From Methanoculleus marisnigri JR1 (GTDB lineage Archaea > Halobacteriota > Methanomicrobia > Methanomicrobiales > Methanoculleaceae), in NCBI RefSeq assembly GCF_000015825.1, contig NC_009051.1, positions 1,482,695 to 1,546,694 of the forward strand: a stretch of 64,000 nt of DNA, given 5' to 3'. The notes beneath the pieces were generated by a model. The model did not search any database. It saw only the letters and a program-made list of their open reading frames with translations, and was not told the origin of the DNA. Position 1 is the first letter of the stretch, and the number at the start of each line of letters is the position of its first letter. Shown in pieces: positions 9,621-23,976 of this stretch. Position numbers and translations under genes: made by a program.

Positions 9621-10085
9621 ATGGAACCCGATCTCGAAGAGAGGATCAATTACTCTTTCAAGCAAAAAGATCTCCTCCAGCGTGCCCTGCTCCATCGGTC
9701 GCGTTCGAATGAAGAGCGACAGAAGCAGAAAATCTGCGAGGACCAGGACGCCCTCCGGACGCTGGGCGACGCGGTCCTGAAAACAATATTGTGCGATCTC
9801 CTCATGCGTTCGGGGTACGAGACGAAAGGCGAGATCACCATAAAGAAAAGCACCATTGAACGCCGGCCGTTTCTTGCCGAACTCGGGAGGCGGTTTGATC
9901 TGCAGGATAAAATCCTTGTCGGAGAAGGCGCCAGAATGCAGAAGCATAACGAAGAGCCCAACGTCATTGCCGAGACGCTCGAGGCGATCATCGGGGCGAT
10001 GTACCTGGACGGCGGATACGAGTCGGCAAAGAAGGCCGTCTCCGGATGGTACGAGCCCTACCGGGAAGAGATGCTGAAAGGGTAG
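9621..10085 (+). CDS. Single-domain ribonuclease III
   Basis: A 154-residue RNase III catalytic domain. Helices typical of the family are present: INYSFKQKDLLQRALLHRS, the signature variant ALRTLGDAVLKTILCDLL (about residues 44-61, with catalytic D at the GD step) and the second acidic helix ETLEAIIGAMYLDGGY (about 118-133). There is no double-stranded RNA binding domain, and bacterial RNase III is about 225 residues, so this is a mini-RNase III architecture, uncommon in archaea. It may process structured RNA or act with the candidate RNAs elsewhere. It stands alone with its own promoter. Confidence 0.85.
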   Translation: MEPDLEERINYSFKQKDLLQRALLHRSRSNEERQKQKICEDQDALRTLGDAVLKTILCDLLMRSGYETKGEITIKKSTIERRPFLAELGRRFDLQDKILVGEGARMQKHNEEPNVIAETLEAIIGAMYLDGGYESAKKAVSGWYEPYREEMLKG

Positions 10086-10254
10086 ATACCAGAGGAACGG
10101 CAGGTGGATGGGAAGGGTTCATCCCGATCTTCTCCGATCCGCAGGTAACGGGTGTCGATGTGACGCGGCATCCCCGGGCCGTCGGCCGGAACCCGGCAGA
10201 CGGTCTGATGACGGCCCACACCCCCGAGTCTTCTCTCCCCCGCACCCCGCCGCC

Positions 10255-10701
10255 CTATCCTTCCCGGATCGGAATCTCGACCCCCTGCTCTTCTAAAACC
10301 TTCCTCAGCCGCACCGCCAGCACGCCGTTCCTGAGGGCAGCCGCCGCACCCTCGTCCGTGACCTCCGCGGGAAGGTTCACGACCCGGGTCATCTCGCCGG
10401 ACAGCCGCTCCCTGACGGCGTAGCCTTCCCGTTCTTCCTCCCTCTGTCGGACGGTGATCCGCAGCGTCCGGGGGCCGGTGAGCCGTACCGCGACGTCGCC
10501 GCTCGCCACCCCCGGGAGGTCGGCGACGACCGCGACCTCGTCCTCGAGATCCCGGATATCGACCGGTATCCCCGCACCGCGGATCACGGGCATCATCCGC
10601 TGCCCGGGCGCCGCCATCATCTCGTGGAGCCGCCGGTGCATCCCGCACATCTCCGGGCCGAACGCCCTCCGAAACGGGCACGAGAATTCTTTCTGTTCCA
10701 T
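10255..10701 (-). CDS. Hsp20/alpha-crystallin family small heat shock protein
   Basis: A 148-residue cytoplasmic chaperone that holds unfolding proteins. The alpha-crystallin domain spans about residues 42-140: PVDIRDLEDEVAVVADLPGVA, RITVRQREEEREGYAVRERLSGEMTRVVNLPAEV and the A-x-x-x-NGVLAVRLRK segment that forms the groove-binding strand; the C-terminus carries the short IPI motif (VEIPIREG) used for oligomer assembly. The ATG at 10701 has a Shine-Dalgarno ggagg about 12 bases before it, and a TATA box (ttatatg, 10746-10752 on the minus strand) lies about 50 bases upstream. Confidence 0.9.
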   Translation of the reverse strand: MEQKEFSCPFRRAFGPEMCGMHRRLHEMMAAPGQRMMPVIRGAGIPVDIRDLEDEVAVVADLPGVASGDVAVRLTGPRTLRITVRQREEEREGYAVRERLSGEMTRVVNLPAEVTDEGAAAALRNGVLAVRLRKVLEEQGVEIPIREG

Positions 10702-10745
10702 ACTCTCAACTCCTCCAGGTGTCGTGCAGCCTACATCCTCCCGCT

Positions 10746-22879: not shown

Positions 22880-23107
22880 GTGGTGAAAGTTACCATCGAC
22901 AGGCCGGGATGCACCAGCTGCGAGTCGTGCTGGACGCTCTGCCCGGACGTCTTTGAAGAGGATCCAAACGACGGCCTGAGCTCGATTACGGAGAAGTACC
23001 GGGTCGACGGCAACCCCGCGGAGGGTGAGGTGCCCGACGACCTCGCCGACTGCGCACTGGAGGCCGCCGACGCGTGCCCGGTCGCGGTCATCATCGTGGA
23101 AGACTGA
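22880..23107 (+). CDS. Single-cluster ferredoxin
   Basis: A 75-residue electron carrier. The cluster motif is [15 protein letters not shown] (about residues 11-25), with the distal cysteine in [11 protein letters not shown] near the C-terminus, as in one-cluster [4Fe-4S] ferredoxins of the Desulfovibrio/Thermococcus type. The rest is strongly acidic. GTG starts at 22880 or 22883; a Shine-Dalgarno aggaggt lies about 8-12 bases before. No direct redox partner gene is adjacent. Confidence 0.88.
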
Positions 23108-23182
23108 GATCATCTGGAGGGCGGATAAAGCCGGCCTGGGCCATAGAACACATGACAGTTATTATTCGTGCACCGAGATAAA

Positions 23183-23190
23183 AATATATA
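23183..23190 (+). promoter_or_regulatory. TATA box for a candidate small RNA
   Basis: gagataaaaatatata is a strong purine-BRE plus TATA arrangement. A start about 25 bases downstream (23210-23215) enters a segment with no convincing coding sequence but with ordered stems and a terminator-like hairpin. Confidence 0.55.
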
Positions 23191-23210
23191 CTTTCAGCGC
23201 TACGGGGGAT

Positions 23211-23367
23211 CTTGCCTGAGAGTGAGGTCAACCAGAAGGCACACCATCACATGGTGCAGCGGGTTCACAGGTCAGAACGGTTACGGCCTGCGAACACAAA
23301 AAAACACTGCACCATGAACCGAAATGTGCCCGGGCGTAAGGCCTTGCCTCTCGGGCACCCTGTTTTC
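23211..23367 (+). ncRNA. Candidate structured small RNA with alternative pairing
   Basis: Downstream of a strong TATA box lie nested stems: catggtgcag (23250-23259) pairs perfectly with ctgcaccatg (23307-23316), enclosing gttc/gaac (23263-23266 with 23292-23295) and caggtc/ggcctg (23268-23273 with 23285-23290). The same bases can instead form a local hairpin caccat-cac-atggtg (23242-23256), so two conformations compete. It ends with a GTGCCCG/CGGGCAC hairpin (23326-23332 with 23352-23358) and a short T run, like a terminator. A TTG-started 65-codon frame exists but its composition is not protein-like. Confidence 0.5.
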
Positions 23368-23376
23368 ACCGGCCCG

Positions 23377-23910
23377 TTACCTGCGTGGCCGCGCCACATC
23401 GACGAGTGATCCCATGCCGTCGCTCTTCTGAAGCACCGAGAGGTTCCCGTTCGTCTCGAGGACGATTGCGTGCACGCCCTCGAGGGAGGCGACGCCCTCC
23501 GACCGCAGCGCCTGACGGATCTCGCTCTCGGCAATCCGCTCCCGCCGCATCGCGCCGTGCAGGAACTCTCCCGCGTGGAAGAGGAGGCGGGGCTCCGACT
23601 TGACCGCTTTCTGCACCCCCTCCGACCGGACGGACGACCAGGAGACGGCGTACTGCAGCACGACCAGGATGCCGAGGGCGAGCACCCCCTCTGCAAGCGA
23701 GACGTCTCTTGAGACGATCGTCGAGGCAAGGATCGAGCCGACGGCCACGTTCACGATGAAGTCGAAGGCGTTCATCGACGAGAGCGTCCGCTTCCCCGAG
23801 AGGCGAACGATGATCACGAGAGCCACATACGCGCATACCCCGACGATCAGGACGCGTACCAGGAAAGCAGGGTCGCCAAAAAGGATCTCCTGCAGGAATC
23901 CGTCGCTCAT
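23377..23910 (-). CDS. DUF421 membrane protein (YetF-like)
   Basis: A 177-residue membrane protein with three N-terminal transmembrane helices (FLVRVLIVGVCAYVALVIIV, FDFIVNVAVGSILASTIV, ALGILVVLQYAVSW) and a C-terminal cytosolic DUF421 domain. Family signatures seen: RLSGKRTLSSMNAFDFIV near residues 38-56 and the alternating segment RLLFHAGEFLHGAMRRERIAESEI then VHAIVLETNGNLSVL. Function unknown; some bacterial members are spore or membrane stress proteins. ATG 23910 is preferred to a GTG at 23919. Confidence 0.85.
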   Translation of the reverse strand: MSDGFLQEILFGDPAFLVRVLIVGVCAYVALVIIVRLSGKRTLSSMNAFDFIVNVAVGSILASTIVSRDVSLAEGVLALGILVVLQYAVSWSSVRSEGVQKAVKSEPRLLFHAGEFLHGAMRRERIAESEIRQALRSEGVASLEGVHAIVLETNGNLSVLQKSDGMGSLVDVARPRR

Positions 23911-23976
23911 ACCCCGCACTGCACGGGGGACGGTATAGCACTTTCTGCAGGGGAATGGTCAAAAAAAGAGGGTTAT

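Follow-up and report, generated by a model that had tools for sequence, protein, structure and literature searches.

A modular, free-standing structured RNA predicted in the methanogen order Methanomicrobiales

Positions 23213-23366 of the window (the 64-kb stretch analysed here, part of a single archaeal chromosome of 2,478,101 bp) almost certainly encode a free-standing non-coding RNA. Comparison with its homologues establishes, at the level of sequence, the gene with its promoter motif, its helices, its modularity and its spread; the gene is predicted to be transcribed. The RNA is widespread in a major methanogen order, is backed by base-pair-level evidence and follows a clear modular logic. 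To our knowledge, few free-acting conserved structured RNAs of archaea are known beyond rRNA, tRNA, RNase P, SRP and the modification guides. A search of Rfam 15 (4227 models, gathering and relaxed thresholds) with the 64-kb window and 13 loci of distant homologues yielded no relevant match, the best sub-threshold score in the region being 15.8 bits on the opposite strand, where 45.5 bits are required. A literature search likewise found no description of the RNA. As far as these searches reach, the family is apparently undescribed.

The RNA gene and its predicted fold

The locus is intergenic, between a ferredoxin gene and a DUF421/YetF-like gene, and comprises the following features:

22880-23107, plus strand: ferredoxin gene, single 4Fe-4S cluster (PF13459, 1.2e-16; also PF13370; synteny; co-loss)
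23159-23167, plus strand: conserved promoter motif TTATTATTC, A/T-rich, 5' of the TATA box (supported by the alignment and by the A/T profile near -55)
23182-23190, plus strand: TATA box AAATATATA, centred about 26 nt 5' of the RNA start
23213-23366, plus strand: predicted non-coding RNA, single-module form, about 154 nt (5' end predicted by TATA spacing, 3' end placed at the U-run)
23213-23222, plus strand: helix P1, 5' strand TGCCTGAGAG (98.6% of cells paired; four pairs with double-sided changes)
23238-23243, plus strand: helix P2, 5' strand GGCACA (double-sided changes in 6/6 pairs)
23242-23256, plus strand: local hairpin CACCAT-CAC-ATGGTG, competing with the long-range fold and at most a folding intermediate
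23250-23259, plus strand: helix P3, 5' strand CATGGTGCAG (6/10 pairs with double-sided changes)
23263-23273, plus strand: helix P4, 5' strand (9/11 pairs with double-sided changes)
23278-23282, plus strand: apical loop CGGTT, possible pseudoknot partner of 23317-23321
23285-23295, plus strand: helix P4, 3' strand (covariation)
23296-23306, plus strand: A-rich strand joining P4 to P3, GACAAAGAC-like in distant homologues
23307-23316, plus strand: helix P3, 3' strand CTGCACCATG (covariation)
23317-23321, plus strand: AACCG, possible pseudoknot partner of the apical loop (CCGA nearly invariant)
23325-23330, plus strand: helix P2, 3' strand TGTGCC (covariation)
23348-23357, plus strand: helix P1, 3' strand CTCTCGGGCA (covariation)
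23363-23366, plus strand: U-run 3' of P1, probable termination site; most homologues have a U-rich tail
23377-23919, minus strand: DUF421/YetF-like gene (PF04239), convergent with the RNA and no constant partner

An earlier note on this DNA had proposed a small RNA gene with a TATA element and no convincing coding frame, and all three points hold: the gene is conserved in genus and order, has a covarying structure and carries its own TATA box. Among 36 homologues, 97-100% have A or T at positions -27 to -24, which places the TATA box at a fixed distance; together with the U-run, the box is conserved in homologues across differing gene contexts. Of 135 insertions and deletions that separate the homologues from the window sequence, 131 have lengths not divisible by three, so the region is not coding; no reading frame stays open across the homologue set. 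Own promoter motif, covarying structure and lack of a reading frame are the features of a free-standing structured non-coding RNA. The TTATTATTC-like motif about 55 bp 5' of the RNA start is a candidate activator site.

The predicted fold has an energy of -71.6 kcal/mol (z -4.23), which none of 200 dinucleotide shuffles equalled. Among the 36 homologues, 92.1% of alignment cells pair, a value that drops to 28-46% when partners are slid by one to three columns. Paired cells are favoured here because the homologues were aligned to the model, so double-sided changes provide the stronger evidence; they occur in 25 of the 37 pairs, as compared to 12.9 +- 2.0 in shuffles (0/500 reach 25). Covariation proves the predicted set of four nested helices, P1-P4, and the RNA has passed the refuting test named in the earlier note, a search for compensatory changes. 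For instance, P1 reads GCCUGAGAG:CUCUCGGGC in the window and GCCUCAGAG:CUCUGGGGC in L063, and P2 changes from GGCACA:UGUGCC in the window to GGUGCA:UGCACC in L076 and GUUCUG:CAGAAC in L063. Conserved unpaired letters cluster in loops (CGGY, AAAGAC, CCGAA). The 10-base perfect pairing of CATGGTGCAG (23250-23259) with CTGCACCATG (23307-23316) that the earlier note had singled out is P3, and the stem nested inside it is P4 (23263-23273 with 23285-23295). The long pairing is thus real, but it is only one of four nested helices, and P1 and P2 had been overlooked. Similarly, the elements of the proposed terminator hairpin, TGCC-TCTCG-GGCA and a T run, are present near 23345-23366, but the hairpin consumes the 3' strand of P1, and P1 followed by the U-run is the supported arrangement of the 3' end. 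At alignment column 54 (window 23254), the middle of P3 contains a mismatch, mostly A.C, in 25 of the 36 homologues and a G-C pair in the window; the A of this mismatch could pair within the local hairpin.

This local hairpin, present at 23242-23256, was the basis for regarding the RNA as bistable, that is, as a regulatory RNA that switches between the hairpin and the long-range fold. In most congeners the sequence permits either folding, and in the nascent chain the hairpin belongs to the best fold until about 23312. Forcing it in the full-length RNA costs 11 kcal/mol, however, and its pairs have a probability of about 1e-7. In a bistable switch both folds are expected to covary; P1-P4 do, whereas the hairpin shows two double-sided pairs against 1.0 in shuffles, 104 of 500 of which score as high. 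The strand shared by both folds tracks P2: where it changes, for instance from G to A in alignment column 40, the change is matched in the 3' strand of P2 and breaks the hairpin. Beyond the genus, homologues either lack the hairpin or have it in broken form, and in L059, L060, L062 and L063 it is weakened or lost. Mutually exclusive folds are hence not upheld, and a switch of this kind is scarcely tenable. As the hairpin is stable in the nascent chain before the 3' strand of P3 exists, it may form briefly during transcription as a folding intermediate.

A pseudoknot between the apical loop and AACCG is suggested by complementarity: in the 36 single-module homologues, 91% of cells pair in CGGU(U):(A)ACCG, and relatives have a CGGC loop with a GCCG partner. 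Covariation above shuffles was not detected in this single-module set. One two-sided change, CAGC:GCUG in L091, was found by eye and is an anecdote only.

Modular architecture and distribution

The RNA class is modular, with one, two or three module copies per predicted molecule. A module spans about 100 nt and consists of the P3-P4 hairpin, the CGGY loop and CCGA. In Methanoregulaceae and two further families, it is repeated two to three times in one RNA with a common end stem; these multi-module RNAs measure about 300-350 nt, with modules spaced about 100 nt apart and a TATA box upstream. The end stem of L081 (GCCUCAGAGGGG : UCCUCCUGGGGC) is of the same type as P1; the P1 strands picked by script in L082-L087 are unreliable. 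An alignment of 44 modules exhibits double-sided changes in 24/24 pairs. Its members were selected partly by the loop motif, so that loop conservation is biased in this set and the helices much less. The module model R3 typically finds three matches per RNA in genera of Methanoregulaceae and a single match in the genus to which the window belongs, and these RNAs offer a natural series of one, two and three modules for studying how repeated RNA modules work. Tandem or multiple RNA genes occur in genus g19 and in G029. In G097 (L060 and L061) and G096 (L059), two tandem RNA genes, divergent paralogues, are located 3' of the ferredoxin gene. G097 harbors a third RNA gene elsewhere, and the tandem and extra copies each possess their own TATA box.

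Repetition of structured units is known from several RNA classes. A decoy RNA of the CsrB/RsmZ type contains several copies of a protein-binding hairpin module, and their number varies among species; the modules described here differ in being archaeal two-helix units of about 100 nt with a common end stem. In archaeal H/ACA guide RNAs, hairpins with internal loops are arranged in tandem, one to three per RNA. The P3/P4 loop has no two-sided pocket of the H/ACA kind: in the modules found by a folding scan, its short strand measures 2-5 nt and its long strand 8-15 nt. With 1-5 nt on one side, the internal loop is too asymmetric for a guide pocket, and here the end stem closes the whole RNA. The STAXI motif consists of two to three tandem structured, possibly pseudoknotted units (PMC2864571) and resembles the present RNA in its tandem copies; no Rfam match was obtained in the window or the homologous loci, and the gene context differs. 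The euryarchaeal motif flpD (RF01737), listed in the same work (PMC2864571), is an Rfam family and does not match.

Within the genus, BLASTN retrieved matches in 22 of 34 other genomes, with one locus each and two in G029; a weak match in G058 was discarded as a 33-nt chance match. The covariance model R1, built from 24 sequences, detects the RNA in 28 of the 35 congeners, the genome of origin among them (98-167 bits). It extends to another genus of the family (G096 and G097, two to three genes per genome), to a further genus (G036) and to another family (G043). Model R2 scores 89 bits in G036 and 82 bits in G043, a rise that is expected since both are in its seed. R3 matches 80 of 231 Methanomicrobiales genomes, representing 15 of 40 genera; several of the matched genomes also contributed seed sequences. 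Outside the order, R3 found nothing credible in 393 sampled genomes of the phylum; two matches there, with E-values of 0.01-0.02, are consistent with chance. Reverse-strand model matches of up to 34 bits were set aside as reflecting the palindromy of the rod. A 22-base module pattern run over the genomes of 84,980 species returned 17 stretches, all assigned to Methanomicrobiales groups or Euryarchaeota, and public records of homologous loci are from Methanolinea, Methanoregulaceae and Methanomicrobiales. Judging from these searches, the RNA family is specific to the order Methanomicrobiales. The RNA is missing from some near-complete congeners and is therefore not essential everywhere.

Neighboring genes

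The ferredoxin gene was found close upstream of the RNA at every examined locus of the genus, at a distance of about 100-120 bp, and is probably outside the RNA's transcript. Seven congeners lack the RNA; the ferredoxin match is absent from six of them and present in one, G022. In the latter (L116:1420-1500, minus strand), the ferredoxin gene is followed only by an apparent RNA 3' end and U-run, resembling a deletion scar. The sequence there ends in ACCCGATCCCCGGGCATTCCTGTTTT and resembles the RNA 3' end when compared by eye, so that a deletion seems to have removed the RNA and left a remnant behind, possibly in a draft assembly. In G029, the ferredoxin-RNA pair is present twice within 4 kb (L071:6378-6871 and 10227-10705).

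The constant ferredoxin neighbor, the joint duplication and the joint absence from six genomes would fit a riboswitch-like element that acts in cis, in the leader or 3' UTR of a neighboring gene. Against this stand its own TATA box, the convergent downstream gene in the window and unrelated neighbors in other families. The RNA of L063 adjoins an A-type ATPase subunit gene, and that of L081 a sodium/solute symporter gene and a 2-thiouracil-desulfurase/DUF1722 gene. Since neighbors differ elsewhere, the ferredoxin link is a trait of this family of organisms and not of the RNA class. A riboswitch or cis-leader would keep a constant 5' UTR position before one gene family; here the neighbors vary by family, and a cis-acting role is very improbable. 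The earlier note had placed the RNA upstream of the DUF421 gene. Because that gene is encoded on the minus strand (23377-23919), the two are convergent, and in several congeners the synteny check did not find DUF421 near the RNA; the association is incidental.

Proposed role and candidate partners

The best overall explanation, which we consider about as likely to be right as wrong, is that of a free-standing structured RNA whose modules dock a protein in trans. RNA polymerase would start just 5' of P1 at the gene's own TATA promoter and stop at the U-run. The transcript would then fold as a rod, in which P1 closes the ends, P2 and P3 come next with asymmetric internal loops, and a CGGY loop caps P4. 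Each module is proposed to serve as a docking site for a protein, and the RNA would accordingly be a trans-acting scaffold or decoy, with binding sites gained by added modules or gene copies. Taken by itself, the protein-docking mechanism is tentative, its chances lying at or a little below even, and it is weakened because the conserved loops would equally suit pairing with target RNAs.

Such pairing is the essence of another reading, according to which the RNA is a trans-acting sRNA whose conserved loops pair with mRNAs and alter their stability or translation. The single-stranded A-rich and CGGY/CCGA loops would fit this role, and an archaeal precedent exists in sRNA154 of Methanosarcina, described as a trans-acting base-pairing sRNA (PMC5867862). 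The Methanosarcina mazei sRNA154 and sRNA162 resemble the present RNA as intergenic, free-standing, structured archaeal RNAs of one lineage (PMC5867862); compared by description, the RNA reported here differs in its four covarying helices and one to three tandem modules. Conservation of all helices and repetition of structured modules exceed what seed pairing needs, and a base-pairing sRNA is thus an unlikely reading, if one still to be reckoned with.

For protein docking, one candidate partner is encoded beside the RNA in two families, that of G039 (nine genomes) and that of G107: a divergently oriented RNase III-domain gene (L089:6237-6908, plus strand; L110:1568-2239, minus strand; L109:2302-2982, plus strand), with a start codon an estimated 70-80 bp from the RNA 5' end. 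Of the RNase III signature the protein retains GDA and EA, and by eye it resembles Mini-III; it might bind or cut the modules. RNase III domains were detected in 60 of the 61 genomes searched in the order, often several per genome; among 14 control genomes, bacteria alone matched. In most other genomes that carry the RNA, orthologues of the neighbor are missing or not linked to it, which makes the protein a lead only. In the genome of origin the orthologue is far from the RNA, several RNA-bearing congeners have fragments or weak relatives only, and none was found in the Methanoregulaceae genera with three-module RNAs. A universal partner of this type is unsupported across genera, and a partnership with an RNase III-type protein is improbable. 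The wider proposal of an order-wide RNA-protein machine with no counterpart elsewhere, in which one to three pseudoknotted modules (CGGY with RCCG 3' of P3) would each bind one putative, possibly RNase III-like, protein, is doubtful. With the covariance models and named loci in hand, tests of expression, partners and deletion could begin immediately.

In G099 and G052, the RNase III-domain gene is present with a broken frame. The window itself encodes a short RNase III-domain protein of 154 aa at 9621-10085 on the plus strand (PF14622, 1.6e-23; PF00636, 7e-15).
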